Of a DNA stretch of 64,000 bases, positions 6,282 through 63,662 are shown in pieces (position 1 is the stretch's first letter; the number at the start of each line of letters is the position of its first letter). A model generated the notes under the pieces. It saw only the letters and a program-made list of their open reading frames with translations, made no database searches and was not told the DNA's origin. This DNA is from Cynocephalus volans (Eukaryota; Chordata; Mammalia; Dermoptera; Cynocephalidae). A program made the translations under genes and the position numbers. The DNA is taken from assembly GCF_027409185.1 (NCBI RefSeq), contig NC_084475.1, positions 15,272,130-15,336,129 of the forward strand. The letters run 5' to 3'.

Positions 6282-6453
6282 GAGCCAGCCTGTGGCTCAC
6301 TTGGGAGAGTGCGGTCCTGATAACACCAAGGCCACAGGTTTGGATCCCTATATAGGGATGGCCGGTTGGCTCACTTGGGAGAGTGTGGTGCTGACAACAC
6401 CAAGTCGAGGGTTAAGATCCCCTTACCGGTCATCTTTAGAAAAAAAAAAAAAA
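6282..6453 (+). mobile_element. CYN-type SINE dimer
   Basis: Two tRNA-Ile-like modules, the second beginning GGATGGCCGGTTGGCTCAC, then an A-tail. Perfect 12-bp target duplication AGAACCGATGGG at 6270-6281 and 6454-6465. Confidence 0.93.
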
Positions 6454-7480: not shown

Positions 7481-7580
7481 TTTTTTTCTTTTGGCAACTG
7501 GCAGGTACAGGGATTCGAACCCTGGACCTTGGTGTTATCAACACTGCACTTTCTAACCAACTGAGCTAACCAGACTACCT
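7481..7580 (-). mobile_element. CYN-type SINE monomer, minus strand
   Basis: Poly-T, then GGATTCGAACCCTGGACCTT (B box in reverse) and AACTGAGCTAACCAG (A box in reverse). Confidence 0.85.
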
Positions 7581-9712: not shown

Positions 9713-9881
9713 GGGCCGGCCTGTGGCTCACTTGGGAGAATGTGGTGCTAATAACACCAAGGCCACGGGTTTGGATCCCTATATAGGGATGGCCGGTTAG
9801 CTCACTTGGGAGGGCATGGTGCTGACAACACCAAGCAAGGGTTGAGATCCCCTTACCAGTCATCTTTTAGAAAAAAAAAAA
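9713..9881 (+). mobile_element. CYN-type SINE dimer
   Basis: Starts GGGCCGGCCTGTGGCTCAC, second module GGATGGCCGGTTAGCTCAC, A-tail. Flanking repeats GTGAAACGTG and GTGAAACATG. Confidence 0.92.
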
Positions 9882-18125: not shown

Positions 18126-20794
18126 CCTCGTGTCCCATGTGTTGTACTAAGCTCTACTGTGCACGATTGGAAGCTCAGGCAGAGGGTTAGGTGACTTGCC
18201 CAGCATTTAAACACAACTCTGTTTAGTTCAAAAGTCCACACACACTTTTCTTGCTGCCTCTTTTTGTTAAAATTAGCCTGTTAATGAGACCTCTGATTTT
18301 TGATCAGTGCTCTTTGATTTATCAAGTGATAGCAAGCTATTAAGGTTTATACTGCCTGGGATGGGTTACCCAGCCTGGGTCACTTGCATTCCAGCAGGGG
18401 CTATGTGCAGCCTGTTGCTTTAGCCTAATGTTAAGAGGCTTTCAGAGTGATGCCACACACGGTAGAAAGGCCTGGAAGGGATATCCTCATTTGAGGCAGC
18501 TGCCTCTGTTTGGTGCTTTCCAAGGGCTCTGAGAAATTCCAGGCCTCAGTATCTCCCCCACCCACCTGTCAAAGGACCTTCACTTCACCTTGGGGGGTTC
18601 ATTTATTTGGATCTACAGACCTCACCAGACTCTGCCAATCTGGGGAGCCACTGGGGCAGGGGAGGTTGGGCCCAGAGTCCTAGTTGAGGCTCAGGATCAG
18701 CCTGAGGGAGTAGGAGGGGACAGCCTGGGCTTGGGTGGGACTTTGGGACTTTCCTCTTAAAGAGGTGTAGGGCTTCTCTTTCTCTTGCCCAATCTAATGC
18801 AGCCAATGGTGGGAGTGGAGGAAAAGGCCTGGGAGAGAAAGAACAGGGATTTAGGTAATGGTCTAGATTCCCCCAAAATCCTAGAGAAAGAAAGAGGGGT
18901 CAGAAGCTTCAAGTGTTCTGGGCTGGCCCATGGCTCACTCGGGAGAGTGCGGTGCTGATAACACCAAGGCCACGGGTTCAGATCCCTATATGGGGATGGC
19001 TGGTTGGCTCACTGGCTGAGCGTGGTGCTGACAACACCAAGTCAAGGGTTGAGATCCCCTTACCAGTCATCTTTTTAAAAAATAAAAAAATTTTAAAAAG
19101 AGCTTCGAGTATTCTAACCCCAGCCTCTGTCATTCACTAGGGGGGGTGGGAGGGGGCAGGGGGCAGGGATTTCATTCTCACCTGGACCCCAGGTTCAAGT
19201 GTCCCACGGTGCTCGCCACATTAGTTAAGGATCTGTGCCCATCGTGGTCAGAGTGGATGTGCTGTGCAGCCTCCATGAAGCCCCTGAGGGACACATGGAC
19301 TCTGGTCACTTGTAGCACTGACCCCGTGGCTTGAGCCACATTTCAGCTGAAGTTCTAGGCTGCTGCTGACACCCCCACAGCCTGGATGTCTCCCACTAAG
19401 GTTAGAGTTACACTGCTCAGCCCATGGAATCACACGCATTGGAGGCCTGGCCTCCATCCTTACAAGCAGAGATGCTGGCTCTGGAACGCCAAACAAGAAA
19501 CAGCCTGGAGAACACAGCAGAGATACATCCTCTTCCTGCCCTGCTCCAGGGCTACAGACCCATGCACGGGGCACAGGCCAAGTTCATGTGCCTGAGGGAA
19601 CAGGACCTTCAGTGTCTGTGTTGGGACCTCCTTGTGAAACCTGCCCAGGAGGGTGGACAAAGGGCAGAACTTCCTGCCTCCCAGTCATCTGCATCTGAAG
19701 TTTGCCAACCCATCACTGGGCCCCAACATTTGCCCCCATCCTTCTCATTGTGAGCATCTTGCCTCCTGGGGACCAGCTTTAGGGCATTGACTTCTTTACC
19801 TATAGATATTTTGAGGCAGCAAGTCCCCCAGTTTTGAATTCTCTGCTGGTACAGGCAGCACAGGCTGGTCAGTGATTAGAATCGCCTGAACTGGGTGTAG
19901 GAAAATAGGCACGAGTCACAGAAACAGGCTCAGAGTCACAGAAAGCCAGGGCTGAACGGAAAGGAGGGAGGTCACACATCATCCATTTCACAGACATAAA
20001 AACAGGCCCAGGCTGGGGAGGAGGTACACCAAAGACCACACCATCTATGCAGAGCCTGGATTCTGGACCAGGTTCTAAATAGACCCGAGTCACCTTATTT
20101 GAGCTGAGCTCCTTTACCAGTGATGTGGATTGAAAATAGCCTTGCCCACAACCCAGAACTGCAGGAAAAGACGGATAAGATGGATGCTGTCAAAGTGGAG
20201 CACTGTTAGCTGAAAAACATGGCAAGTGCATGCGTTACACAGTGTTATTATCATCCCGTGGTCTAAGTTCCCCTTCCCTCCCCAGACTGTCTGCCTATAG
20301 TGGGGTTGAATCTTTCTGACCCCCCTCTCATGGGCTTTTCTCCTTTTCTAGTGAATTTCAGGCCCAGCACAGAGATTTAATGAGGACACGTGGCGGTAAT
20401 TTGGCGTGGGAGTAAAGGACAATGTGTATTGGCAGTGTGAGGGTTGGGGGCCCAGCAGGTGGACAGAATCATATCTGGGGGTTATTCTGCCTCCCAAAGT
20501 GGTCTGTAGAGACCCTGGTTTCATCTGGTTGGACAAATCCCCCCAAGTGCTTTCGAGGTTGATGGAGGTAAGAGGTAAAGCAAAGGTGGTCATTAAGAGA
20601 CATCCTCATGGTCACTTGAATTGACCTGGGTCTGGTCCTCATCCCTGCACATCTGGAACCTGATCTCCGTCCAGACAAGCAGAGAGGTTCACACTCTACG
20701 ATAACTCTCAAGTAGCTTATTTTGGCGACATTCCTTTCCACGGACCTGAATGCCTGTGACCCTCATCCAGCTTTTTGGTTTTAGCTACCTGGGA
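18126..20794. other. Intergenic around a SINE dimer
   Basis: A reversed MIR-like trace at about 18180-18230 and the SINE dimer at 18920-19100. The rest is unassigned. Frames of 108-109 residues at 19248-19753 overlap on opposite strands and show no family features. Confidence 0.4.
18920..19100 (+). mobile_element. CYN-type SINE dimer
   Basis: Starts GGGCTGGCCCATGGCTCAC, two modules, A-rich tail. Target duplication AGCTTCAAGTGTTCT at 18905-18919 and a copy with two changes at 19101-19115. Confidence 0.92.
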
Positions 20795-24945: not shown

Positions 24946-26829
24946 CTCATCTCACCTGTAAAGACACACACAGACTAATAGTGATGGGGTGAAAAAAGAT
25001 ATACCATGCAAATGGAAACCAAAAACAAGCAGAAGTTATTCTTATATTGGATAAAATAGACTTTAAGCCAAAGATGATAAAAAAAAGACACAAAAAGCCA
25101 CTATGTAATGATAAAGGGATCTATCCAGCAAGAAAACATAACAATCATAACTACATATGCTCCCAACATCAGAGTACCCAGGTCTATAAAGCAAACACTA
25201 TTAGACTTAAAGAAAGAGATAGACTCCAATGTGATAATAGTTGGGGACCTGAACACACCTCTCTCGGCACTGGACAGATCATCTAGGCAACAAATCAACA
25301 AACACAGGATTAAAACTACACTTGAAACCAGTTGGACCTGGTGGACATCTACAGAACTTATCATCTGACAACTACACAATATACACTCTTCTCATCATAT
25401 GAAACATACTCCAGGATAGACCACATGTTAGGTCACAAACAAGTCTCAAAAATTTTTTAAAACTTGAAATCATTTCAAGTACCTTTTCAGACCACAACAG
25501 ATTAAAACTAGAAATTGATAATTAGTGAAACTTTCAAAACTATAAAAATACATGGAAATTAAACAATAGTCTCCAGAATGACTTATGGGTCAAAGAAGAA
25601 ATGAAAGAGGAAATAAAAAAATTTCTTTAAACTAATGAAAGTAAAGACACATCATGCCAATACCTGTGGGATACTGCAAAAGCAGTACTAAGAAGGAATT
25701 TTATTGCAACAATTATTGCTTTCATCAAAAGAATAGAAAGATCTCAGGAAAACCACCTAACGCTACACCTCAAAGAACTAGAAAAACACGAACAATCCAA
25801 TCCCAAAATTAGTAGGTGGAAAGAAATAATTAAGATCAGAGCAGAACTAAATGAAATAGAGACCCAAGAAACAATACAAAAGATTAATGAAACAAAAACT
25901 TGGATTTTTGAGAAAATAAAATACACAAACCATCAGCTAGATTTAAAAAAGAAAGAAGAGAGAAGTCCCAAATAACAAAAATCAGGAATGAAAAAGGAGA
26001 CATTGCAACTGATTCCACAGAATATGAAGAGTCATTAGAGACTATTATAAACAACAATACACGAACAAATTTCAAAATCTGCAGGAAATGGTTACATATG
26101 AACTACCAAGACTGAACCAAGAAGACGTAGAAAACCTGAACCAACCAATAACAAGCAATGAGATTGAAGCAGTGACCAGCAGTCTCCCAACAAAGAAAAG
26201 CCTAACACCGGATGGCTTTATTGCTGAATTCTATCAAACCTTTAAAGAGGAATTAATACCAATTCTCTTTAAACTATGTCAGAAAATTGAAACAGAGGCC
26301 ATTCTCCCAAACTCATTCTTTTTTCTTTTTTAAATTTATTTTATTTATTGAATCAAAATCGATTATACATATTTTGGGGGTTGAACATTGAGATATGTTG
26401 ATCAAACCAATATTACTAGCATATATATTGTTACAAATTGTAATTATTCTTTATGCCCCTCGTTCAATCTCTCCCGTGCCCCCATTCCCTCCCCCTCCCC
26501 ACTCTAATTACCCTAGATTACTTCTCTTCTTCTGAAAGAATCATGGTTACTCTGTTGATTTGTTGCCTAGATGATCTGTCCAATGCTGAGAGATATGATT
26601 AGGTCCCCCAATATTATCGTAGAGCAGATGCTTCTTCTGTCACTCTGGAATGGACTTTGTGGAGAGAGACATCCTCTTCTTTTCTTTGAGTCTGCTGGTG
26701 ACTCTCCTTGTGTGAATGCACTCCAGTGGTTGGTGGACCATTTGCATGGTGGTTGTGACATCTAGCCGCTTTCACAGCAGCCATGGTTATTGTGGTGACT
26801 GTCATGGGCCACCCACATGGAGGTGCTGT

Positions 26830-27825
26830 TTCTGGTATGCTCCTGGCACTGGCAGTATGCCTGGTTGTGGGGTGTGTCTGATCCCCTTCTCCATGTCTCT
26901 GGTCCCTGGGCAGGCCCCAAGTCACTGGCGCCATGTACCTGGTTGTGGGAGGTGTGTCTGGTCCCCTTCTCCATGCCTTGGGTCACTGGCTGAGACCCAA
27001 GGAGCTGGCTTGGTGTGCCTGGTTGGGGGATGGGGGTCCAGCCCCCTTCTCCATGCCCCAGGTCCCTGGGCAGGCCCCAAGGTGCTGGCACTGTGTGCCT
27101 GGTTGAGGGAGGGTGGTCTGGTCCCCTTCTCCATGCCTTGGGTCCCTGGGTGGGCCCTGAGGCACTGGTGCAGTGTGCCTGGTTGTGGGAGAGAGGTCCA
27201 GTCCCCTCATCCATGCCCCAGGTACCCAAGTGGGCACCGAGGCGCTGGTCTGGTATGTCTGGTTGTGGGAGAGAAGTCCAGTCCCCTTCTGCATGCTTTG
27301 GGACCCCGGGCAGGCCCCGAGGCACTAGCATGGCGTGCCTGGTTGTGGGAGAGAGGTCCGGTCCCCTTCTCCATGCCTTGGGTCCCTGGGCAGGCCCCGA
27401 GGTGCTGGTATGGTGTGCCTGGTTGTAGGAGGAGGGTCCGGTCCCCTTCTCCATACCTCAGGCCCCCAAGTGGGCTCCGAGGTGCTGGCATGGTATGCCT
27501 TGTTGTGGGAGAGAGGTCCGGTCCCCTTCTCCATGCCCTGGGTCCCTGGGCAGGCCCCAAGTTGCAGGCATGGTGTGCCTGGTTGTGGGAGAGAGGTCCA
27601 GTCCCCTTCTCCTTGCCTCAGGTCACAGGGTGGACCCCAAGGTGCTAGTGTGGTGTTCCTGGTTGTGGGAGGGGGAATCCAGTCCCCTTCTCTGTGCCTT
27701 GGGTCCCCGTGCTGGCCCCAAGGCACTGGCACAGTTTGCCTGGAAGTGGGAGTGGGGTCCGGTCCCCGGATCCAAGCCTCTGGCTCCCAGGAAGGCCCCA
27801 AGGTGCTGGTGGTGTGCCTGGGCCA
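26830..27825. repeat. 80-bp VNTR, about 12 units
   Basis: The phrase GGTTGTGGGAGAGAGGTC recurs with period 80 bp at 26941, 27021, 27101, 27181, 27261, 27341, 27421, 27501, 27581 and 27661, with diverged units at both ends. Each unit also carries GTCCCCTTCTCCATGCC and GGGCAGGCCCC. The GC-rich, stop-poor composition opens long frames on both strands; these are not genes. Confidence 0.92.
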
Positions 27826-35424: not shown

Positions 35425-38400
35425 CTGTGAGAGGAGACACAGCAATCAGGGCCCTAGTCCCCTTCAGACCCTGCCAGACCCCATCCTGACACTGTGGAGC
35501 CATCAGCCAGCTCGGCAAAGCCTGTGACCCTGGGCCTGGCAGCCCCACTCTGAAGACCCCCATGAACCTCCTCCATGATGCAACCATGAGGGTTTTTCTG
35601 ACAGTAACATCAGCTGATTTTGCACTGGGCCCTTTTTCCTTTCTAATTTTATCTTCTGGGACTCCCCTTAGCCCCATATCTCAGCTCAGTAGAAGCACCT
35701 GGAGGTCACCAAATACAGGTTGTGCTTTACTGCCTCTCTTCCTGCTAATGCCAGTTCCAGGTTGGTAAATCACCCACCCTGTTCTGTGTCGCTTGATATC
35801 TTGCACCATGGAGGTTGGTACTTTATCTCCCCTAGGCACCCCCAAGGCTACCAATGCTTTTTTGTTGACCAGCTGAATGGGTGGATGATATGTGCACAGA
35901 AGAGCTCTGCAGAGCAGTTTTCTGGGGAGAGCTAGAACAGGAAGGTGGTGGTGAGAAGTAATGGGGTGAGATGGAGAATGGGCTTGAAGCCTTGACTCTG
36001 GCTATAGCAAGTGCTGGCATCTGGTGACAGAACACGGACAGAAGTCCCCAGGCTTGGCTTTCCCGTAGGAGGGACCCCAGGTAGGATCAGGAGAAAGGGC
36101 CACAATCACTCACCTCTTGTAGAAGACAGAGGACACCCCCGTATTGTTGCTGCCAAACTGTTCAGAAGGCAGGGTTGCTTCCACTGTGGGCAAAGTCGGC
36201 CACACGTTATTGGCACAGTCGGGGGTTCTCGCATGGCTCACAAGCCACCCCCACCCTGCCAGCCCTCACCAGGAGAAATCCTTCCCCTGGAGTAGGAAGC
36301 TTTGTCTCTTTGGGTAGAGTTCCTTGGGCTTCTGTTGAGTCCTCTGAATCACAACACACAGTCATTTTTCCATCATTTTCAGGTGTGGCAAGAAGAAATA
36401 AAAATTAGGTAGGAGCGAGCACTGTAGTTTATTCTAGGGGGAGAAATAAGTCTTTTCATGCTCTCTTTCCAATTACCCTTGTAAGTGGGACAGATGGGGG
36501 TGGTGGGGAATCCCTGGTCCTTTCCACTTGAGTCGTGTCTGAGCAGGGCTCAGGAACAGAAAGTTCTGAAAATGGGGCATGCAGTTTTTGTAGTGGTAGG
36601 GGGGAGGAGGACTCCGGAAGGCTGGTGAGTAAGATAGTGTATTCTGGTTAAATAGTGAACAATGACCAAGAGGAATGAAACATTTTTATGAGAAACTATG
36701 TAGGCAATTTATGGTGAGCAGTTTGGTCTCGGACTCCTGAGACCAGCTTGGCACTGCGCATCCATGACCTGCCAGTTATCTTATGAGTCCTAGGCTCGAA
36801 GAACTCCTTTCTCAAAGGTCCCAGGCTTTGGTAGCTCCTGGCTGAGCTCCGGGTGATTCCAGTCATAACAGCTCCTCTGGAGACTGCTGTTCATCTTACA
36901 GGCTGGTACCCTGTGGGTCCCCCACCCCAGGCCCTGAAATGCCTTTCTCCCTAAGGCTTCACATTGGGCACATATTTAGCCTCTCTGTCCCTTGCTCTCG
37001 AGTCTTACTCAATCCCTTTTCTTTCCCCACGGATTTTCTTGGCTTCCCCTACTTGGCAGCCCCGGGGAAGTCTTGCTCGGGTGACCCTTTGTGAACTCCA
37101 CTTTCCCCGGTGGCAGCCTCTGTGTCCGATCCTAACAACACATGGGCTTATTCCAAAGCCAGCTTTGTCTGTTTATACATAACCATCCAACATGTCTGAG
37201 TGGACACTGGGTTGAGGAATGACTGGACACACATGTGCTGGGTGGACGTGGAGATGGTCTGTTTCTCAGGCACCAGTGACAACAGCAGGAAGACCCCAGC
37301 ATCCCTCAATGGGGTCTAAGACACAGAGGAGACACCAGGGCAGCTAGAGAGGTCCCTGAGGTTGACTCAACGGTTGAAATCTTTAAGCGTCCACTGTTAA
37401 TCTGTGCACCTCCCTGGGCCTTTCTTACCTTTCTTGCTCTTACAAAGCCAGAGAAAGTAGAGGAGGGGGTGGCTGGGGACCCAAAGAGAAGATGCACTGT
37501 AAAATGCCCAGGATCACTTTGGGTTGGCCAAGTTCCTGGGATTCAAACTGGGACCCTCCGGGCTGCCCCACATCCCCACTACCCCAGGTAATGACAGGTC
37601 CAGGGTGTGAGTACCAGAACACAGACCACTTCCTAGAGTGATGCTCCGGGACCCTCTGCAGACATCTGAGGCCCACTGGGGCTCCAGTGAGGAAATGTGA
37701 GGCTTCCAGGGCTGTCCAACTCCGGAGAACAGGGCTGGGCCATGGGCCACCGAAGCCAAGGTCCACGCCCCTGCCCCCACTCCAAGCCCTGCCAGCCCAG
37801 CTGTGCATCAGCTGGACTTTGGAAAGACCTCAGGCACTGTCATGGGAATAGTAGTGCTGGGCTGCTGCTCTTCCTCAGTTTCTCCCATCCCAGCTCCCCA
37901 TCCTTCTGTCTGTCTCTCTGTCTCTTAGGCTGTCAGTCATTTCCCTTCAGCCCATGCGGAGGAGTGGGAAGAGCGCTGACTTTCTCAGTCCCAGTCACCA
38001 GGGCCACAGCATAGATGAGAAAGCTCTTACCTGGGTCAACAGTCACTTTAACTTGGGTCCCGCAGTCAGTTCCAGTCCTCTCAATCCCACACCAGTAAGT
38101 ATCTGTGTCATCTCGCCTGAGCCCCTTCATGGTCACTGAGAACGAATGGTCTCTGTGATTGTCCCTGATGGACACACGGTCACTCTTCTCCTCCTGCTCA
38201 GACCCTCTGGTTTGAATGAGGATGTTGCAAAATCTCCAGATCTTCCCTCTACACCACCACTTCTTGTAGGTCTCCCAGCCTGGGTTGTAGTGACACTGCA
38301 CGGTCACCGACCCCTGCTCCCGGGCTCTGACGGACTTTGGGCCTTGGATAGAGAAACAGCCTGGAAAACAGAATCTCAAGATACAGACCCCACCACCCTG

Positions 38401-44481: not shown

Positions 44482-44616
44482 GGTCCTGCCTCTTCGTCTC
44501 CTTGCCTTTCCAACCTACAACCAGCAGCAAACACAGATCCCAGCTGGATTCTAAGCTCTGCCCGAGCCCTGGCTGGCACCTTCTGCTTGTCCAGACCGCC
44601 TTTGAACTTCTCACGC

Positions 44617-44626
44617 TTTCACTTCC
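44617..44626 (-). promoter_or_regulatory. ETS/IRF composite element (EICE-like) next to the TATA box
   Basis: GGAAGTGAAA fits the known composite site GGAANNGAAA bound by PU.1 together with IRF4 or IRF8. It overlaps the last base of the TATA box. A second GGAA core lies about 20 bp further upstream in AGCAGGAAATAGC. PU.1/IRF control would fit a myeloid receptor, but binding is inferred from sequence only. Confidence 0.45.
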
Positions 44627-44633
44627 TTTTATA
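44626..44633 (-). promoter_or_regulatory. TATA box candidate of CD300LB
   Basis: TATAAAAG on the minus strand about 145 bp upstream of the CD300LB ATG. Transcription would start near 44600 and leave a 5' UTR of about 120 bp, which is plausible for this family. No transcript evidence is available, so the start point is inferred. Confidence 0.55.
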
Positions 44634-46164
44634 GAGTGGCTATTTCCTGCTTTTAATTATTCAGCAAAAAGCATGTTATTCCTTGGCAGGGCAGCGTCAC
44701 AGGGCATGAACATCCTCACTAGGTAGGAAAGAGGAGGCGAGGGGGCTATGCAGAGTGGGGAGGATAAGGGAGAGATGAGCCCGCAGGAATACTGGGGGGT
44801 CCATCTGACCTATCAGGCCTTGGGTTCACAGAGTGCAACACTCCAGGTGTGACCTCCAGAAATGGTTCTACACTATAGTGATGGGTCCCAGCAGAAAGGA
44901 TCCTCCAACTCAGGTGTCAGGTGGGCTGTGCTTGGCATACCTGGAGATGCATGCATTCAGGTGTTATAGCCAAGTGCATAAAAATGAAGACTAGGGGGTC
45001 AGACAGATGCGGGCTCTAACCCCACAAGTACAACTTATAAGCAGTGTTGACTGTGGACAACTTACTTAACCTCCCTCAACTTCAGTTTTTATATCTACGA
45101 ATTGGGCTTATAATAATTCTTGTGAGAATTAAATGAAAAATCGTATGTGAAGTTCTGAGGACAGAGTCCTAGAATAGACTTAGCACTGTATATTATTAGT
45201 AGTACCCTGCCCCAAAACCTTAGCCCCTAGATGAAGAGTAGGTTAAAATAAGCCCAGGGCAAGGAGCCAAAAGAAGGCCAGTGGACTGGATTTCTTCAGT
45301 AGTAATAAGACAAATAACCTAAATGATTTATTTATCTTCATTTATAATCCAACAGCTAAAACTCTTGAAGAACAGTTTTGGGAAGTGGACAAGGGTATTT
45401 CTTTCCAGATCTCCAGAGCCAGCCATGGAGGAAGGGACTCTCCCTGGAAGTTCTGTAGTTGGGGTGACTCAGGACACACATAGGAGAACTGAGGGAAAGA
45501 ACGGGACTCAATCCTGTACTGAGAAAGACTGGGGCACCTGGATAGCACTGGGAAATAGCTAAGAGGTCTGGGACATGAGCCTCACTCAGGTCTTCTCAGA
45601 CAGGTTCAGGCCAGGCCATTGACCCACCATCTTTATTTCTCTGGGAAGCTGGAGCAAGTTTGCTTTAGTATCAAAAATTAATATTATCCATCGTATTAAT
45701 AGAATAAAGGGAAAAAAACACATACTCATGTAAATAGATGCATGAAAGCACTATATAAAATCCATTACTTTTCATGATAAACTAGGAATCAAAGGGTTTC
45801 TGTAAGCAACCAATTACAACCAATAGCAAATTATTAACAGTCTTCCCTTTAAAATCAGGAAGAGTATAAGGATGCTCAAAATACCACTTGGATCCAACAC
45901 TTTGATTAGCCTGCACAATACAGCAAGAAAAAAGAAACAAAACATGAGAATTGGAAAGAAAGAAACAAAACTCTAAATTATTATAGTTGAATTAATAGTT
46001 TATATATAAAACTGAAAAGAATTACTAAGATTTAAATAGGGTTGCTAAATATTTAGCATATATATAAAGAACATACAAAGATCAGTTGTTTATCTACAAA
46101 CATGCAATTACTTAAAAATGCAATAAAAATAAAAATATGTTGAAAGACAAAAATCACATTACTT
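44634..46164. other. CD300LB upstream region
   Basis: Unique sequence upstream of the TATA box, then a MIR at 44985-45190, then AT-rich sequence up to the compact L1 derivative. No exon seen. Confidence 0.5.
44985..45190 (+). repeat. MIR SINE, plus strand
   Basis: GACAACTTACTTAACCTCCC followed by TCTACGAATTGGGCTTATAA and GAGAATTAAATGA is the MIR order of landmarks. Confidence 0.72.
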
Positions 46165-46175
46165 AGAAATTTAAA

Positions 46176-47052
46176 GTGGGTCCCCAGCATCACTCTGTCC
46201 CACAAATCAACCAATTTACAAGTATAAAAAAGCAACTGCAGCCAAGCTGGGGATGCTAGAGCTTAGGGGAAGAGGAGGAAAGACCTACTAGTGCATGAAG
46301 GCAGGAGAAGCCACAGTGAGAGAAAGAAAAGACCGCTCCAACTGTTTCAAATCCCAGTAGCTTCCAGGCTAGAGCTGCTGAGCGCACAGAGCAGGAGCTG
46401 ACAAAAGCCACAGCTGTGCCTTTCGGATGAGGTTGCTTGGAGGTCGCAGAGGAGAAGAAGGCCTTGGTGGCCCGCAGGCCAGCAAGACCTCTAACAGTGT
46501 TCCTCTGGACCCACATTGGAGCAAGGGTCCACAGCAACTGAAAAAAAGGAGCCACTCAGAGGTCAGTGAGTCATCGCAACGGACTGGTGCACAACCTGTC
46601 CCATGAGGAGTGTTTGGAGCATGGGCGGTGGGGGAGCTGTCCCAGAAGAACACCGGGACAGAGCAAGGACAGCTGATCTACCCCTCAATCGGTACAGGAC
46701 CACTCAGTGGAGACTGGTCAGGAATATAGAACTGCAGGGGGTGCAGTTCGCTGAAAAGACTGAGGACAAGACCAGAGTTTCCACACAACCCAGGTGCACC
46801 AGGTTTCACTAGACCTGGAAGTTCCTATAAAGTCAACCATTAAAATCTGAGCTGCACAAAAAGCCTTTCCTAGGGAAGCAGCAGCAAAGCAGCAATTTAG
46901 CTGGGAATGAGGGGGTGCCACAGGCCTCGATCCTGCCCCTCCTCTTCCTCCTTCCTCCATCCCACTTCCTCCCCCTTTCCCCTCTCCCCCTCCCTCCCAA
47001 CTCTGCAACAACATCATAGAATGTAAAAAATACATACATTAATTAAAAAGAA
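46176..47052 (+). mobile_element. Compact 877-bp LINE-1 derivative (5' UTR joined to 3' UTR)
   Basis: Flanked by an 11-bp target duplication AGAAATTTAAA at 46165-46175 and 47053-47063. The left ~720 bp is the same L1 5' UTR as in the element at 26320-28865; compare GCAGCAAAGCAGCAATTTAG at 46878 with its complement at 27900-27925. It then jumps straight to a pyrimidine-rich 3' UTR and a short A-rich tail, so it lacks the VNTR, ORF1 and ORF2. It lies between CD300LB and CD300C. Confidence 0.85.
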
Positions 47053-47504
47053 AGAAATTTAAAATGATATTAATAAAAATAAATTACATAATTCTGCTCA
47101 TATAAAGTTCAAAAATAAGCAAAGCTAAACAATTAGTCTTTGGAAATACACAGGCGGATATATGACAAAACCCTTAAAACAAGGAGATGATGAATATAAC
47201 ATTCAGAATGTGGGTCTCTCAGAGGAGAATAGAAAAAGAAGGCACATATGATCAAGACCACCTTTGGCATTTCATATATATTAATACTGTGGCGGGAAGG
47301 TGGTCACACAAGTGTTGAAGAGTATTCTCGGTTTAATTTGTGTGTATTTAGTAGGTACATTCTTTTGTATGTGTGATACATCGCAGGGAAAAGTCTCCAG
47401 AAAAGTTTACATAGTATTCTGATACAAATAAGGGCTGATTGGACAGAAGGCCATGCCCATACACCAGTGGGGCTGCGTTGCTTGGCTGTCGATGGGCATC
47501 AGGG

Positions 47505-47652
47505 CTACTGGTTCTCACAACCCATTTGACTCTGGCTCCACCTAGAGCGCCTCTGAGGCCTGTTCACCCAGAGGACAGCCCCGAGCATGCTCAGGAGCAG
47601 GGGCACCTCCAGGATGACCAGGAACATGAAACGGACACTGCTGAGCAGGGAC
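47505..47652 (-). CDS. CD300C: CD300C exon 4, membrane helix and tail
   Basis: 148 bp from acceptor CCCCTACAG to the TAG at 47505-47507. It encodes [20 protein letters not shown], then [16 protein letters not shown] and a short tail ending CENQ. The glutamate inside the helix is characteristic of CD300C. The frame is open and the conserved parts are undamaged. Confidence 0.88.
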
Positions 47653-48284
47653 CTGTAGGGGTAGACAGAGTGACATTGAGCTGCCTCCTCACGGGGAGGT
47701 CCTGGTACCCTCCACTTTCCCCCTGTCCCTTATGCCCAGGTCCTGTGGCCCCTACAATGCACATGAGGACCAACCCTGGACAGGGCAGCCCTATATGAAG
47801 GACCACTGCCCATTAACTGTCATCTTAAGAATTGCCCTTGAGTCTTAGAACTGTGGACATAGGAAGGGCACAGCCATGAGTTGATGTGAGGGGACACCCA
47901 GGGATCTTGGCAGGATCTACATCCAGAAGGATTTCTATCTAGACCCTCTGCATTTAGGGGTACTCCTTCTGGAATACAGGAATCTATACTGTGGTCATGC
48001 ATTTATTGTCAGTATTTCCCTAAGGGCAGGGGCTGGCTTTGTCTGGTTCACAGCGAGTAACTGGTGCGTGCCCTGTGCCTGCCCAACATCTTCCTGTAAA
48101 ATGAAGTGGTTATGATGGAATGAATGAATGACCCAGCTGAGGTCCTGCCTTGGAGGAATGGGTTCTTCAAAATGGGGTGACACTTGAGACCAGGGCTGGG
48201 GAGGGAAGCACGGGAGAGTGCCAGGGCCACCAGACCCTGAGAGCATCTGCTCCCTGCCCTTGCCTGGGTGGGGCTGAAGGCTCG

Positions 48285-48685
48285 TCTGCAGGACATCTGC
48301 ACTCTCTCCTCCCTCTGCCTGGAACACCCTTTCCCAGAGCCCAGGGCCTGCCCCCCGCCACCAGTCCTGCAGGTCCCCACTACACATCCTCTACTCAGTG
48401 AGGTCTCCCTGATCATTGTGTGTAAATAGCCAGCCCACCACCCTCCAGCACACACTCTCCCCCAACCCAAGTGGCAAGTATTTTTTACTAGCATTTATCA
48501 CAACTTGCCATATTTATATATAAACTCATGTGTTGACTTGTTCACTGCATGAATCCACCAGTAGAACACAAATTCCATCAGAGCAGGACAGTGTCTGCAT
48601 GGCTCACTGCCATGTCCCAGTCCTGAGAGGAGCGCCTGGCACTTAGTAGAACCTTCCCATTAGGTATGGGATCAATGAATAAAGG
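48285..48685 (-). repeat. LINE-2 3' fragment in CD300C intron 3
   Basis: CCTCTGCCTGGAACACCC, AGTGAGGTCTCCCTGATCA and GGCACTTAGTAGAACCTTCC with a terminal TCAATGAATAAA are classic reversed L2. Confidence 0.75.
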
Positions 48686-48785
48686 AGGGGACAGGAGGAG
48701 GGAGGCACACTCCACACCCCTCACCCCCTTCCTGCCTAGAAGAGAACCCTTCAGGGTGGCAGAGTCTCAGATGCAGGCTGCATAC

Positions 48786-48888
48786 CGGGGGTGTGGGCTG
48801 GGATCGAGATGGGCTGAGCTGTCCCAGGTGCTCACAGGCAGGGACGTGGCAGGACCTGAGGTGCTTGCAGAGCTTCCAGGGCTGGAGG
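48786..48888 (-). CDS. CD300C: CD300C exon 3, stalk
   Basis: 103 bp with acceptor CCCCAATCACAG and donor CG/GTATGC. It encodes ASSPGSSASTSGPATSLPVS, then TWDSSAHLDPSPHP. This parallels the human TASSPQSSMGTSGPP and PSPHPG stretches. The start is three or four codons shorter than I recall for human, which suggests that the acceptor has shifted to a later AG. Confidence 0.75.
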
Positions 48889-50119
48889 CTGTGATTGGGG
48901 TTGAGGGAGAAGCACAGGTCAGGTCTGGGGACCACACCTGTGTCTTCCACTCCCCGTCACCTGTGTAGCTCAGACTCCCACAGAAAAGGCCACTCAGAGC
49001 ATGCTAAACAGATGTCCTGAGTCCCACATGCCCATGGTCACACCCAAGAGTGGCCAGGTCCCTGGGCCACCCTCCCTGGCCCCATCTCCAGGTGTTCTCT
49101 GGCCAGGCAGACTCTTTCAGGTATGAGATTCACCCTGCTAACCGGGGGGATATGAGAGTCTTTGGAAAGAGCATGTGATTCCAGGTCCCACCCCAGCCAT
49201 AGACACACCTTTGTCTGCCCTCCCAGGGAGGGATGGGTAATGTCACTCTACGGAGACTGATCTAGAGCGACTGGGGAGCCAGGCCCTGGGGCAGGGCTGA
49301 TGGCTAGAGTGAGGTTTCACATGAGAACAGGGGCAGTCGGTGGGGTCTGCATCAAATCATGGGACCCTGAGCCCACCCACCGTCTCAGCCCCCAAACTGT
49401 CATCCAGGCTTGTGGCTCCAAACAGGCCACTGAACAATCCTGTCTGGGGAAGGGAATGACCGGGTCTAGAGAGACAGACGCCTGCCAGACCCCATGGGAA
49501 GTGGCCTGTTGTGAAGCCACCTGGACAAAGCCCTTTCCTTCACACATCAGCAACACTGGCTGGATTTTAGTTCTCATGAAACAAGACAGGCTCCTATTAA
49601 GGAAGAATTATTTGCAACACATGGAAGACCGTTGGGTCCATAACAGTCTGAGAGCCCGTTTCTATCCTGCTTGTCCCACTGCCTGCGGGCGGCAGTTTCA
49701 GGGTGTCTGTGGGTTTCCTCCTGTGGTGTAATGTGCCAGAGGAAGAGGGGGAGGCAGGTCAGTCTGCAGGGTGCCCCAGAGCAGGGAAGCCCCTCACAGG
49801 GGTCTGGGCTCCTCCTGGTATCCCTCTTGTGACCACTGCAGAAGTCCCCAGGACAGCAGCTATGAGGCTAGTGCTTCAGGGACCATCCATGACAGGGTGA
49901 TGTCCTCTCAGGGCCCCAGGGTCCTGGCACCCTTTGAGTTAGGGGAGCAGGTGCCCTCGAGGTCCCATTCCCCATAGGGAAGATGCAGGTAGATCCAGGA
50001 GAGACACAGGTCTCCTTCAGAGAGGACACAGCCCTTGTCAGCCCAGGAAGGCAGCAAAGATCCCCACTCAGGGCTGGTCCCACCCCCACCCTGGGAAGGT
50101 TCAGGCCTGAGATGGTCAG
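48889..50119 (-). other. CD300C intron 2, lacking the rest of the Ig exon
   Basis: I searched both strands by eye for the missing end of the Ig domain (a WCG-type motif with the preceding acidic turn) and found none. The stretch otherwise looks like unique intron sequence; a 143-codon plus-strand frame at 49300-49731 has no family features. Confidence 0.6.
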
Positions 50120-50250
50120 TGTATTAGTCCATTTTTTTGTTGCAATAACAGAATACATGGAACTGGGTAATTTATAAAGAAAAATGAAATTTATTGCTTA
50201 CAGTTTCTGACGCTGGGAAGTCCAAAGTCCATCTGGTGGTGGCGAGAGTG
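50120..50250 (-). mobile_element. Truncated MaLR-type LTR end abutting the broken CD300C exon
   Basis: Begins TGTATTAGTCC and matches the copy at 63236 up to GGTGGTGGCGAGAGTG. After that it switches without a gap to CD300C coding sequence, so only about 130 bp of LTR remain here. Confidence 0.8.
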
Positions 50251-50384
50251 TCGGTATGGGGAGGAATATAAGACTTTGAACAAACTCTGGTGCAGAAAAC
50301 CACTTATTTTACTATGTGACAAGATTGTGGAGACCAAAAAGCCAGAGAGAGAAGTGAGGAGTGGCCGAGTGTCCATCAGGGACA
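50246..50384 (+). pseudogene. CD300C: Inverted middle part of the CD300C Ig exon
   Basis: Read on the plus strand this segment encodes CRYGEEYKTLNKLWCRKP, then CDKIVETKK and GRVSIRD. These are the residues expected directly after GGSLSV in CD300C (human has TLNKFWCR, CDKIVETK and GRVSIRD). It is therefore the next ~45 codons of the same exon, flipped in place. The junction at 50383-50385 shares two bases between the two orientations. The other end abuts LTR sequence at about 50246-50251. Confidence 0.85.
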
Positions 50385-50444
50385 CGCTCAGGGATCCCCC
50401 CACGGTGCTGTTCATGGTGCTGGGGCCACTCAGAGAAAAACAAC
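50383..50444 (-). pseudogene. CD300C: CD300C exon 2, native-orientation start of the Ig domain
   Basis: Acceptor GTTTTCCAG at 50445 and onwards, then codons for GCFSLSGPSTMNSTVGGSLSV in the correct phase. The last native codon is the GTG at 50383-50385. From there the minus strand no longer reads as an Ig domain; the frame stays open and ends at a stop near 50191 inside LTR sequence. Confidence 0.85.
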
Positions 50445-51018
50445 CTGGAAAACGCAAGCCTCATCCTGGGTCCTCACCAGACGGGCCTGGGGTGGGGGCA
50501 CCCTGGGTCAGGTCCTCAAGGTCCCTCAGGAGGCAGTGCGGGGAGACGGGCCTCGCTCTGACCAGGACTCGGGACTGAGGGGTGAGCAGCTCCCTCTTCC
50601 CAGAGGTGGGCACGGGGAGAGGGGTGCCCATGCAGACAGGAAGGGCCCAGGATGGGAAAATGCTGTGTGTGTGTGTTTGTGCATGTATGTGCCCACCTGT
50701 TTGCACACCTGTGTGTGAGATAGACCACGATGGTGTTTCAGATTGTGTAACTACAGCAGTGACAGTCACAGGTCCCCTCTCACCCAGGCTTTCTCTGTGC
50801 TGGGCACAGTCAGACTGGACTTACCTGCACTGTGCACTGAAGTCTGGCAGTCACCTGGTGAGGAAGGTGCTGATGGCTCCTGGATTTCCTCTGTCCTCCT
50901 GCCCTCTCTCCACGTCCCCAATTCTCTCTATGAGCCACGCCTTAGCCACCTTCCATCCTGCCCCTGCCTCTCTCCCACTCAGGACAGAGCTTCCCTTGTC
51001 CAGGCTAGCCCAGCTCAC

Positions 51019-51079
51019 CTGGGATATGCAGGAGGAGCAGAACTGAAGGTGGCCATGTGGCCCTGTCCCTCACTGTCAT
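51019..51079 (-). CDS. CD300C: CD300C exon 1, signal peptide
   Basis: 61 bp, 20 codons plus one base, with donor CCCAG/GTGAGC. It encodes MTVRDRATWPPSVLLLLHIP. The alternative ATG seven codons in lies in another frame, so the upstream ATG is chosen. It aligns without gaps with the long human CD300C leader, which starts MTARAWASW. Confidence 0.85.
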
Positions 51080-51358
51080 TTCTCCAATGTTGATGTCACC
51101 TTCAGCCATGCCAGACTCCAGGAGAAGACAAAGTGGAGCCTCCTCACTGAGGGTCCAATGTCCTCGTCACCACTTCTGTTTTTCTGCCCTCCTCTGCTTC
51201 TTCATCCAGTCCTGTCCTGGGTCCAATGCTGGAGCTGGTCAGGGTGCAGGAAGCTCAGGAACAGAAGCCGCCTGCACTGGCACAGACACCCCCAGGACGC
51301 AGTCCCATTAGCACCTCTCAGTCCTGATGACCAGGCATGTCTCAGGTCCTTTGGCTGG

Positions 51359-51743
51359 TGTATTAGTCCGTTTGTGTTGCTATAACAGAAATACCTGAGA
51401 CTGGGTAATTTATAAGGAAAAGCTGGGACAGCTGCATCTGGCATGGGCCTTGGGCTGCTTCTACTCATGGTGGAAAGTGGTAGGCCGCCAGTGGGTACAA
51501 GCAGATCACATGGCGAGAGGAAGCAAGAGAGAGAGAGAAGGTACCAGGGTCTTTTAAAGCATCAAGCTCTTGCAGGAACTAATAGAGCGAGAACTCACTC
51601 ATTCAGCTCCCCTCCCCCAGGGAGAGCATTAATCCATTCATGAGGGATCCGCCCCCATGTCTCAATCAGTTTCCAACACTGCCACATTGGGGATCAAATT
51701 TCCACACGAGTTTTGGAGGTGACAACACATCTAAACTCCATCA
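51359..51743 (-). mobile_element. MaLR-type LTR just upstream of CD300C
   Basis: Begins TGTATTAGTCCGTTTGTG and ends CATCTAAACTCCATCA. Flanked by the 5-bp duplication GCTGG at 51354-51358 and 51744-51748, as expected for LTR integration. It lies about 280 bp upstream of the CD300C start codon. Confidence 0.85.
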
Positions 51744-52989
51744 GCTGGAGATGCAGCCCCTCCTTACAGCCCGCAGCTGATCTCACTGTCTCTCATACAC
51801 CCCCGCACAGCAGAGCCACACTGGGCATTTCCTCTTGATGGGGCGTCCCCTCCCTCTGTGATATGTCACTTCCTGTCATCAGATGACTAATCCGGCAGTG
51901 GAGGCCAGACTCGTCCATCCTCTCTAGTTTGGTGGTGACCACATGGGACTCAGACACCCACAGAGAGCTCTGCTCCCCTGAGGCCCCAAGCTCTTCTTCT
52001 GGCCTCACACGTAGGCACCGTGACCCAGAAACCTTCCACGGCGTTGCATCTTGGTGCTGAGTCCCCAGTAAGGGTGCAAACCCCGCAGACTTCTGCTTCT
52101 CTCCTCTTATTCCACCAACCTGCAGACCCCGACCTGGAGCAGCTGTCACCAACCCTCTGAGACCCTCACTTTCCAGTCTCATCCTCTTGCAAACGCCACT
52201 CCTCACTGAGAAAGGGAAAAGAGAACAAAGAAGGAGGAAGAGCCTTCTGAAACATGAAGACACTGAAGTGGGAAGTTGGGCGCCATGTGGGGCTGAGACA
52301 TTGCCTTTCCCCACACCCAAAGGCACACAGAGAGGGCGGTTTATGACTTAGAGGGCAGATTGGCCTAGAGCTCTGGCTGCTGGCGTCTCTCCTGGACCCA
52401 CAGTGATATCTAGGGGCCTCTTCCCGGACCAGAGATGGGGGACAGACCTTCCCAGGAGGTGAGGACAAGGTTCTGTCCACACTCAGAGTGGCTCAGTCTC
52501 CTGGCATGATGGCTTTAGGGTCAGTTTACCCTGGAAAGAGCAAAGAGGCAGAGTAGGTGCAGGGTCCCCTGACCATCTCTCCTGGGTGTGCCACATTTTC
52601 TCAGCTTTGCCATGCACAAACTGGTCTATGGATTTTCACATCCCTTCCACCCCCCAGGTCTGTTCTTCCATGCTGTCTTTTCAGATCAAATGCAATAACA
52701 TCCCCAAGGGTCCTGCAGCCCAAACCCTTAATCCCGGCTCTGCTCTCCCTCGCTCCATGAGTCCTTATCTACAGCTCTCCAAATCTGCCCCTTTCCCCTG
52801 ACATTACAATAGTCCTCTCTCCTCTCAACACTATGGTGACATCCCTGCTCCCTTCCAATCCCCCTCGCCACCTTCTCTCTCTCTTCTCCACAATGCAGCA
52901 CGAGAGAATTTTAACATACTTCTGTTATAGTCAATGTCACCTCTTTCCCCCATCCTTCAAATAAAACCCACTCTCCAAGTGGACCTGGC

Positions 52990-53445
52990 CACTGGTTGGT
53001 TCTCCAGTGTCATCCTGTTGTGCCATCACCATGTGGTCCTTATGTTCCAGCCACTGTATTCATCCCTCCTCAGGGCCTTAGCCCCTGCTGTTCCCTCTCC
53101 CTGAATCCCTTCCCCCAGATGTCCTTGCCTCTGGCCCCTTCTTATCCTTTAGGTTTCACCTCAGATGTCCCCTCCTCGGAAGGGCCTCCCTGATCCCCCT
53201 CCCCAGGAGTCACCCCTGCTTGTCTCCATCATGGATCCCTGCTAGTTCCTTCCATAGTTCACCAAAGGCTGTTACTACGTTTTCTTTTTGTGGTTTCTGT
53301 CCATCTCCCCCACTAAGAAAAGCTTACATCACGGCAGCATCTGGGTCTGCTCTGTTCACCACAGAATGCCCCAGTGTCCAGCCACAATGTGTGGTGACAA
53401 GTGGTTGGCGTGTAATAAATATTTGCTGAATGAGCAAATGAATAA
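52990..53445 (-). repeat. LINE-2 3' fragment
   Basis: TTAGGTTTCACCTCAGATGTC, GAAGGGCCTCCCTGATCCCC and AATAAATATTTGCTGAATGAG are classic reversed L2. Confidence 0.8.
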
Positions 53446-53489
53446 AAATTGGATGTGGCTGTAGAGTCTGGCCTAGGCAAGTGTGTTCC

Positions 53490-53940
53490 AGCTACCTTAG
53501 ATGTCTACCACTGCATAACAAATTTCTCCAAAACTTAGTGGCTGAAAACAATAAATGTTTATTATCTCATGGTCTTTGAGAGTCACAAATCTGGGAGTTG
53601 CTTAGCTGGGTGGTTCTGACTCATGAAGTTCTAGGTAAAACTTTGGCCAGGGCGTTAGTCATCTGAAGGCCGAGGATCTGCTTCTGAGATGGGGCCCTCA
53701 CAGGGCTATTGGCTGGAGGCCTCAGTTCCTTGTTTGTGTGTCTTCGTGACATGGCAACTAGCTTTTCCTAGAGCAAGTGATCCACGCCATACTATCTTCT
53801 ATGATGTAACCTTAGAAGTCACATACCTAACATACTAAACTTAGAAGTGCATCTACCACATTTGTGGATCACACAGACCCACCCTAATACAGTGTGGAAG
53901 GGGACACCACAAGGGCATGGCTACCCAAGGATATTCACTT
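53490..53940 (-). mobile_element. MaLR-like LTR remnant
   Basis: Contains CACTGCATAACAAATTTCTC and AACTTAGTGGCTGAAAACAA, common in old mammalian LTRs read in reverse. The ends are not sharp and the family is uncertain. Confidence 0.5.
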
Positions 53941-56900
53941 TCTCAGACTTCACTGAGTTGTACCTCTAGGATTTATATAATTTCCTGTTTATATGTTATA
54001 TAGCAATAAAAGAATTTTAAAATCCAAAACCAAACATGAAATTATTCCTCTGAAAGTCTCCTTGACTTTGTATGGTTATTGTTTATCAATCTTTTTTTCA
54101 CATAGCAAAGGGTTTACATATATTAATCTCTTCTCCTCCCAAGTACCTCACCAGCAGCTCAGAGAGAGTAAACAAACTGACCAAAACACGGGAGTGAGGG
54201 TGTCAGGATATCTCTGGCTCTAATGCCCAAGGGTCTTTCCACCCTACCTGGCACTGAAGGGGAGGGAGTGGCCGAGAGACAGCCTAAGGGAAAAGCACGC
54301 TTCAGACCAGGAAACAGAGAGAGGGGGTTTGTTCGGTAGAGGTGGCCATGATAACCCAAGTTGAGAAACTCACCAGGGAGCCACTGTTTCCCAACTCTTC
54401 CGGGCCTTCTATTCTCTCTCCCTTCTCTTACTTCCCCCGTGCATTTTCCTTTTCAGAAAACATTTCACAACTAAAAGCTGTTCCTTCTACCTCCTGGCCA
54501 TGCTGACAGGCTGAAAGATCTAACAGACGGACAGTGCAAAGACAACAGTAATTTGGGAAGTCGTGTTCGGCTTTTGGTTTGAGAAATACCCTGTGGGAAT
54601 TTCTACTGTCCTTCTACTCTTGAGACTGCGCATGAGGACCTGACTCAGGAAGATCCACGTAGGGACTCAACCCAGGAAGACCCAAACCCTTGCCAGCGTG
54701 GCCCTCCTCTCAGTTGGAGAAATGTTTGTGTTTCAAGGGGCTACTGTAGAGAAACAGAGTACACAGTCAACAATCTGGCATTAAATGCCATTGGAGCCAT
54801 CTAATGAGGGAATTGAGTCTTTTTCTCTTTTGCAAGGGAAAAAATGATTAACCAAAGATAAAGTTAAAGACAAATGTTAATGCCTTTCCTTGGGCTGGCA
54901 TTAGCAGTATCTGCTTTATCTCTAGTTGGCTTCCAGGGTCTCTCCAAGGTCCAGAGAGGCTTGGGCCACTTCTGTTTCTTGAAGCACTCAGCATCTTAAA
55001 AAAAAAAAAAAAAAAAAAAAGAGGGAGAGAGATGCCAAAATAGGGTTACAAAAATTGTGGAAGGTTTTAAATATGTGAGGTTCACAGATCAACTTTTTGA
55101 TACACAGATAGCAATAAAGTACAATTAACTGGTATATTAAAAAAAAGACTGCTGGGTTAAAATTTTAATTTACTGGTGGTTTGGTAGGAATGAAACATGT
55201 ATAAATATGTAGGATAAACATTTCTGTCAACGCAGGCCTGCAGTTGTCTAGATAATCCAATTTAGCGACAATGTTTAAGACCAATTATGAGGCCCTTCAT
55301 GGGATGAGAGGCTCCTGCAGCCCGCACCCCTTTCCACCCCGCCACTGCATGATAGGCCCTGCCCCTCCAACCATCACCCCTTTCTTCCAATTGCTCTTGG
55401 CCCCAAGCCTCTTTCTCCTTGTTTCTGAACCCCACAGATGCCTTCCCTCAGACCTTTCCTGATTTTTTCATCCATGTTCATCACAGATATTGGCCTGTAG
55501 TTTTCTTTTTTTGTTGCATCTTTGTCTGGTTTTGGTATCAGGGTAATGCTGGCCTCATAGAACGAGTTTAGGAGAATGGCCTCTGTTTCAATTTCTTGGA
55601 ATAGTTTTAAAAGGACTGGTATTAATTCTTCTTTAAAGGTTTGGTAGAATTCAGTAGTGAAGCCATCCAGTCCTGGATTTATTTACTGATTACTGCTTCA
55701 ATCTCATTGCTCATTTTTGGTCTGTTCAGATTTTCTGTTTCTTCTTGGTTCACTCTTGGTGGTTTTTATGTGTCCAGAAATTTATCCATTTCCTCCAGGT
55801 CTGCAAATTTATTGCCATATAGTTGTTCATAACAGGCTCCAGTGATTCTTCGTATTTCTGTTGTATCAGTTGTTATGTCTCCTTTTTCATTTCTGATTTT
55901 TGTTGTTTGGGTTTTCTCTCTTCTTTTTTTAGTTAGTCTAGCTAATGGACTGTCTACTTTATCTTCTCAAAAATCCAGTGTTTTGTTCAGTTGACTTTTT
56001 GTGTCTTCTTTTGTTCTCTACTTCCTTGAGTACTGCTCTGATCTTAATTATTTATTACAGTCTACTAATTTTGTGGTTGGATTGTTCTTGTTTTCCTAGT
56101 TCTTTGAGATGTAACATTAGTTTGTTTATCTGAAGTCTTTCTATTCTTTTGAAGTAAGCATTTATTGCAATAAACTTCCCTCTTAGTACTGCTTTTGCAG
56201 TATCCTATAGGTTTTGGTATGATGTGTCTTTATTTTCATTGGCTACAAGAAATTTTTCACTTTCCTGCTTAATTTCCTTTTTAACCCATGGGTCATTTGG
56301 GAGCATGTTGTTTAATTTCCACATATTTGTATTATTTCCAAATTTTCGATTGTTATTGATTTCCAGTTTTAATCTATCATAGTATGAAAAAACACGTGAA
56401 ATGATCTCAATTTTTAAAAATTTGTTGTGACTTGATTTGTGACCTAACATATGGTGTCTCCTGGAGAAGGTTCCTTGTGCTGATGAGAAGAGTGTATATT
56501 CTGTGGTTGTTGGATGAAATGTTCTGTAGATGTCTGCGAAGTCCAATTGGTCTAAAGTGTAGTTTAAGTTTTGTGTTTCTCTGTTGATTTGTTGCCTAGA
56601 TGACCTGTCCAATGTTGAGAGAAGTGCGTTCAGGTCCTGTACTATTATTGTATTGAGGTCTGTCTCTTTCTTTAAGTCTAATAGTGTTTGTTTTATATAT
56701 CTGGGTGCTGCCGTGTTGGGTTCATATGTATTTATGATTGTTCTGTCCTCTTGCTGGACAGATCCCTTTATCATTATATAGTGGCCTTCATTGTCTCTTT
56801 TATGGTTTTTGGTTTAAAGTCTATTTGATCCAATATAAGAATAACTACTCCTGCTCATTTTTTGTTTCCATTTGCAGGGTATATCTTTTTCCATCCCTTC

Positions 56901-61637: not shown

Positions 61638-61860
61638 AAGATGACCGGTAAGGGGATCTTAACCCTTGACTTGGTGTTGTCAGCACCATGCTCAGCCAGT
61701 GAGCTAACCGGCCATCCCTATATGGGATCTGAACCCGTGGCCTTGGTGTTATCAGCACCGCACTCTCCCGAGTGAGCCACGGGCCGGCCTCCCAGGTTAC
61801 ATTTCTTACCACACTAAAATAATTTTTTAAAACAACAACAACAACAACAACAAAAAACAC
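61430..61860 (+). mobile_element. LINE-1 3' tail with a SINE inserted
   Basis: Phrases such as AACAATACTGTATTGTACAC and GAGGGTAGATCTCAGGTTAC are typical of an L1 3' end. It is split by the SINE at 61607-61792 and ends in AACAACAACAAC. Confidence 0.65.
61607..61792 (-). mobile_element. CYN-type SINE dimer, minus strand
   Basis: Poly-T, then AAAAGATGACCGGTAAGGGG and two reversed modules ending GTGAGCCACGGGCCGGCC. Perfect 15-bp target duplication CAGGTTACATTTCTT at 61592-61606 and 61793-61807. Confidence 0.94.
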
Positions 61861-63235: not shown

Positions 63236-63662
63236 TGTATTAGTCCATTAGTGTTGCTTATAACAGAATACACAGAACTGGGCGATTTATAAAGAAAATG
63301 AAATTTATTGCTTACAGTTTCTGAGACTAAGTCCAAAATCCACCTGGTGGTGGCGACAGTGACTCAGGGGTCTCACATTGCAAAACAGTGGAAGCAGAGA
63401 GAGCAGAGAGAAGGCAGAGAGAGACAGACTCTCCTCTTCTTTTAAAGCCCTCAGAACCATGCCCCTGACCACCATTTTTAATCCATTCACTACTGCATGG
63501 TCCTACAATCCAATCACCTCTTCAAGTCTCCACCTTTCAATGACCATAATAGGATTTTCTACCCTCTGTACAGTCACAGTGGGGACTAAGTTCCTAATAC
63601 ATAAAACTTGAGGGATACAACTCAAGCTTCAGTGAGTTATGGGGGGACATTAGTCCACTACA
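63236..63662 (-). mobile_element. MaLR-type LTR, minus strand
   Basis: Begins TGTATTAGTCCATTAGTG and ends ACATTAGTCCACTACA. Flanked by the 5-bp duplication GATAC at 63231-63235 and 63663-63667. Confidence 0.85.

Follow-up and report, generated by a model that had tools for sequence, protein, structure and literature searches.

The CD300C gene and its neighbours

The window analysed here is the whole 64,000-nucleotide stretch of the genome of the colugo Cynocephalus volans at C27:15272130-15336129 (C27 being contig NC_084475.1; one assembly, 2.81 Gb in 130 contigs), and the local CD300 region used for comparison is the 264 kb around it. The minus strand of the window carries the exons of a gene whose signal-peptide, Ig, stalk and transmembrane (TM) exons start at 51079, 50444, 48888 and 47652, which is the order of CD300C (Table 1). 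Against human CD300C queries, exon 1 reached 57% to the signal peptide (tblastn), exon 3 63% to the stalk and exon 4 71% to the TM segment and tail. The TM exon encodes a glutamate and a short tail without ITIMs. The gene and CD300A are on opposite strands; a CD300LB-like gene flanks the former on one side, and more members of the CD300 cluster follow on the other. This CD300LB-like gene, on the minus strand between CD300A and the broken gene, has its Ig exon at window 38029-38361 and presumably sits at the place of CD300LB in the human gene order; the presence of CD300A at 15.21 Mb and of the CD300LB-like gene between the two argues that the broken gene is CD300C. In a PDB search, the best match of its inverted Ig piece was 9z0m, CMRF35-like molecule 6 (E 5e-14), with 54.1 bits versus 51.6 for CMRF35-H (CD300A), scores that are too near to separate the two, and the intact CD300A exon likewise scored best with CMRF35-like molecule 6 (158.4 versus 155.5). 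Judged by its content of signal-peptide, Ig, stalk and TM exons and by their order, and not by Ig sequence alone, the gene is CD300C, and on this basis the assignment made in an earlier, sequence-only reading of the window holds.

Table 1. Exons of the broken CD300C gene and the adjoining LTR (positions in the window)
Feature	Position	Strand	Remarks
CD300C exon 1, signal peptide MTVRDRATWPPSVLLLLHIP + 1 base	51019..51079	-	donor GTGAGC; ends and phase checked
Ig exon (exon 2), first part GCFSLSGPSTMNSTVGGSLSV, native place and strand	50383..50444	-	acceptor TTCCAG directly before
Ig exon, second part CRYGEEYKTLNKLWC..GRVSIRD, inverted in place	50247..50383	+	alignment to CD300A exon
CD300C exon 3, stalk ASSPGSSASTSG..PSPHP, open	48786..48888	-	acceptor TCACAG picked by frame, uncertain; donor GTATGC
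CD300C exon 4, TM with glutamate (VILEVPLLL) and short tail ..GCENQ-stop, open	47505..47652	-	acceptor CTACAG
MaLR-like LTR, terminal ~130 bp	50120..50250	-	86-94% identical to 16 genomic copies, a count that leaves out a further partial match, 81% identical, in L005

The intact reference for the Ig exon comes from the same genome. The plus-strand gene at 15.21 Mb has four ITIM-like tyrosine motifs, recognised by eye, from which we take it to be CD300A, and its Ig V exon at C27:15210777-15211121 (+) is complete, with CAG as acceptor and GTGAGT as donor; this exon was used to approximate the ancestral CD300C exon. As judged from its sequence, CD300A, the inhibitory partner of CD300C, retains both a collinear Ig exon and its ITIM-like exons. 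Across the 264 kb, CD300A and five other CD300 Ig exons each form one collinear piece over at least 112 of 115 query residues, indicating that the inversion described below is the derived state.

Several other observations were made in the region. One of the collinear Ig exons, at C27:15404576-15404926 (-), has an in-frame TGA directly after NKYWC, and a TM-like CD300 exon at C27:15364318-15364431 (-) has an in-frame stop after WVNRS. About 5 kb past the end of the window, a CD300-like gene at C27:15341300-15343317 (-; L031) has signal-peptide and TM exons, and no recognisable Ig exon was found in the ~1.6 kb between them with six Ig exons as queries (best blastn E 0.028), so that two neighbouring CD300 genes appear to be without a working Ig exon. 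Within the window, a tandem array with an 80-bp step occupies 26802-27741 (of the nine overlapping 300-nt copies listed, one served as reference and eight are 64-78% identical to it), and ARAGORN marked five tRNA-like SINE heads at 6359-6434, 7499-7575, 9790-9864, 18997-19071 and 61640-61714, four as tRNA-Val(gac) and one as tRNA-Ile(gat); these heads resemble those of colugo SINEs.

An inverted segment within the Ig exon

Alignment to the CD300A exon divides what is left of exon 2 into two blocks of opposite orientation. On the minus strand, window 50383-50527 aligns to CD300A 15210839-15210688 (152 columns, 84.9% identity, E 1.7e-36), a match that also takes in the edge of intron 1, consistent with the earlier view that the exon begins normally on the minus strand from 50444 to 50383. 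On the plus strand, window 50247-50383 aligns to CD300A 15210841-15210977 (115/137 positions identical, 83.9%, E 1.7e-33). The two pieces are adjacent in the intact CD300A exon; in the window they face each other head to head, 1-5 bases having been lost where they meet. Exon 2 is thus split after ..GGSLSV and its next ~137 bp are reversed in place. The second half scored 93 as it stands and 9 when reverse-complemented, with at most 17 in 1000 shuffles, and the first half (50384-50446) scored 55 and 10 on the minus and plus strands, respectively; these strand controls and shuffles exclude a chance match, and they bear out the reversed, adjacent continuation of about 140 bp proposed previously. 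The overlap of the two blocks was measured as 1 base (C, 50383), and not as the 2 bases at 50383-50384 given before; a second shared base at the inner join would require that the ancestral exon, here approximated by that of CD300A, had an A following GAC.

LTR matches dominated a genome search with the 135-aa reading frame that spans the junction; among the 150 of 18927 candidates that were scored, C27:15210716-15210980 was the only match besides the junction itself and the LTR copies, and its two rows, of opposite strand relative to the query, amount to one collinear exon. When the inverted part alone was searched, 11 matches were obtained from 12 candidates: in 2.81 Gb a single match was 100% identical (the piece itself), CD300A followed with 73% of amino acids over 45 residues, six paralogues of the cluster reached 40-44%, and three weak matches lay outside the cluster (E 0.97 to 4.7). 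A scan of 49800-51000 for inverted repeats with arms of at least 12 bases returned two pairs, neither of them at the flip.

The two halves differ in their divergence from CD300A, with 4/64 mismatches in the first and 22/137 in the second (Fisher p 0.07), a gap that could reflect a first half converted by CD300A or a foreign second half. The latter would be in keeping with an insertion of the plus-strand piece into a deletion junction, templated by CD300A or by a duplicate since lost, and gene conversion between CD300A and CD300C has been reported in primates (PMC12447643, in the part of that study drawn on here). Yet the piece starts 1-5 bases from the end of the native half, a position that a flip predicts and that an unrelated donor would be unlikely to hit, and its nearest other match in the genome is the CD300A exon at only 73%, which indicates that CD300A was no recent donor. 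We therefore regard a templated insertion as decidedly unlikely.

The lost exon half, the outer join and the origin of the rearrangement

The remainder of the exon appears to be gone. In window 44500-55000, the best score for the missing half of the Ig exon was 17, and no match went beyond chance: a first set of 20 shuffles reached at most 15, and in a second run 5/200 reached 17. The segment behind this score, 44692-44735, was accordingly rejected as a candidate for the missing half and is a chance match (equalled by 5/200 shuffles, after 0/20 in the first run). Genome-wide, 18 candidates were obtained with the CD300A version of the missing half, and 17 of them matched: one was CD300A itself, six lay at C27:15.31-15.50 Mb (47-51% identity) and the other ten were weaker. 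The loss of the rest of the exon, claimed from the sequence alone, was thus confirmed both around the locus and in the genome, where the search recovered only CD300A and more distant matches. A complete CD300C Ig exon elsewhere had been named as the finding that would speak against a genuine lesion; the genome-wide searches recovered only the piece itself, CD300A, paralogues and weak matches, so that this one assembly yielded no second CD300C Ig exon. We also aligned the CD300A locus with window 48000-53000 to size the deletion, and intron 2 gave no alignment.

The far end of the inverted segment runs into a MaLR-like LTR. Its remnant corresponds to positions 1-130 of copy L008, no more of which matches here, in agreement with the truncated MaLR LTR previously noted at this end. 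The aligned lengths of other copies (L003, 403 bp; L008, ~439 bp; L005, 464 bp) indicate ~400-440 bp for a whole element and hence ~270-310 bp lost at the junction. What disappeared in the rearrangement is thus the last ~140 bp of exon 2, some intron and these ~270-310 bp of the downstream LTR. The copies continue with ..GTGAC in 7/7 aligned cases (AGTGAC in 6, GAGAGTGAC in L007), and at the corresponding point the window reads GAGAGTG followed by TCGG, which belongs to the exon. AGTG (50247-50250) is common to exon and LTR, and the boundary is ambiguous over these 4 bases. The join cuts through the LTR and therefore postdates its insertion, for which the 86-94% identity to 16 copies would suggest, at a mammalian rate and very roughly, an age of some tens of Myr or less, at best an upper bound for that of the rearrangement. 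Another member of this LTR family, a 427-bp copy that matches L008 positions 1-439, is present at window 63236-63662.

These results make it very probable that the CD300C gene was inactivated by one small complex rearrangement, consisting of a flip and a deletion within the Ig exon; the adjacent blocks on opposite strands, the missing half and the cut LTR each uphold the flip plus deletion that the sequence-only reading had suggested. The inversion, the deletion and the cut in the LTR would be products of one repair event, with microhomology of 4 bases at the outer join and 1 base at the inner join. A single event is favoured because the flipped piece starts almost where the native piece ends and the deletion starts where the flip ends. 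Such an event could have taken two routes. In one, a stalled or broken fork would switch template at AGTG, copy the exon piece backwards and switch back (MMBIR/FoSTeS-like); in the other, end joining would reseal the breaks after the small piece had turned round and its neighbour had dropped out. Homologies of 4 bases and 1 base fit replication-based switching and end joining equally.

A two-step origin is conceivable, in which the LTR was brought up against the middle of the exon by an initial deletion, and a 137-bp microinversion between short inverted repeats at its edges followed. GAGAGTG (50244-50250) and CACGCTC (50383-50389) indeed form a 6/7 inverted repeat at the exact edges, where only 3/5000 random pairs are as good (8/5000 with the left edge set one base off), and the human-chimp microinversions have flanking inverted repeats in 59/59 cases (PMC8755829, in the part drawn on here). 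However, once the edges may shift by -5 to +4 bases, as in published work, 520/5000 random pairs reach 6/7 (555/5000 with the left edge one base off), so that the edge repeat is weak, and the published microinversions measure 17-33 nt versus 137 here. Two steps would, in addition, require an extra loss of 5 bases (CAGTG), and two events are less economical than one; we consider this origin unlikely.

It may also be asked whether the animal carries a collinear exon after all, the altered one being an assembly artefact or a change on one haplotype. The data do come from a single assembly, but its contig is 74 Mb long, the 264 kb contain a single run of N, which lies beyond the window at C27:15181474, the other exon half was not found elsewhere in the assembly, and the junctions carry short homologies. 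This explanation appears very improbable, and the single complex rearrangement is the reading followed below.

Consequences for the receptor and comparison with known systems

In the altered exon, the minus-strand frame is open for 84 codons (window 50194-50445) and then meets a stop within the LTR. The 84-aa sense reading matched no Pfam family at E up to 10, and the intact CD300A exon scored 61.1 bits with the V-set family (PF07686); this test is soft, since the first 66 residues of the CD300A exon alone give 20.8 bits, under the cut-off of 26. The two halves are short for such a test: in Pfam they gave no V-set match and one sub-threshold match to another family, and a PDB search with the 22-residue first half found no match at E up to 10. 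The inverted piece carries its cysteines in antisense, and the deletion removed the distal Ig cysteine; we infer from this that the V-type Ig domain of CD300C cannot be made. Retention of exon 2, with its stop in the LTR, would give a truncated product, which is probably degraded.

The three remaining exons had been described as good, and this stands for their frames and for the splice dinucleotides at the chosen ends; less certain is the acceptor of the stalk exon, and the position expected for a human-type acceptor has no AG. Exons 1, 3 and 4 add up to 312 coding bases (61 + 103 + 148), and skipping of exon 2 stays in frame if TCACAG is used. It is conceivable that CD300C is alive in this form, as a small Ig-less TM protein that would pair with adaptors through its TM glutamate, and if this were true the receptor would have turned into an adaptor-binding decoy; on the present sequence this is extremely improbable. 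CD300C has a disabling change, with no functional copy found elsewhere in the genome of this one assembly, and is probably a unitary pseudogene, with the activating receptor probably dead. That exons 1, 3 and 4 are open may mean that the loss of function was recent or partial; open frames neither prove nor exclude constraint. Since both halves and the altered exon are open, the latter over all its 84 codons, screens for pseudogenes that rely on stops could miss a break of this type.

A literature search found no paper on CD300 together with colugo, and none of the papers retrieved on exon microinversion and gene loss in mammals concerned CD300, judged by title or beginning of abstract. As far as this search goes, the present CD300C case looks unreported, although the kind of event is known. 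In primates, CD300C is pseudogenised or missing in several species and CD300A is present in 33/33 species, according to the part of the study of Dias et al. 2025 (PMC12447643) drawn on here, and the main text of that study contains 0 mentions of colugo, Dermoptera or Galeopterus. The colugo case would add a likely loss of CD300C outside primates, again with CD300A kept, and it bears on whether the activating half of the CD300A/CD300C pair is dispensable. The two situations are alike in that an activating member of a birth-and-death cluster is lost and CD300A is kept; they differ in their routes, which comprise premature stops, missing domains and absence of the whole gene in the primates covered by that part of the study (PMC12447643), and here an inversion and a deletion in the Ig exon.

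The lesion itself is legible to the base, both junctions included. Small inversions are documented between human and chimpanzee, where in one strict survey 59 microinversions of 17-33 nt comprise one that is exonic and lies outside the coding part (Potapova et al. 2022, PMC8755829, in the part drawn on here). They resemble the colugo case in that a short segment is reversed in place, whereas that set is flanked throughout by inverted repeats and the segment described here is ~137 bp long, coding, coupled to a deletion and bordered by a weak edge repeat (PMC8755829). What the colugo presents is a new and unusually legible case of probable CD300C loss by another route, of a kind already known. 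Short template-switch rearrangements of the MMBIR/FoSTeS type leave a copy on the switched strand that is joined through short homologies, and the colugo exon would resemble them in both respects, although here end joining fits equally well.
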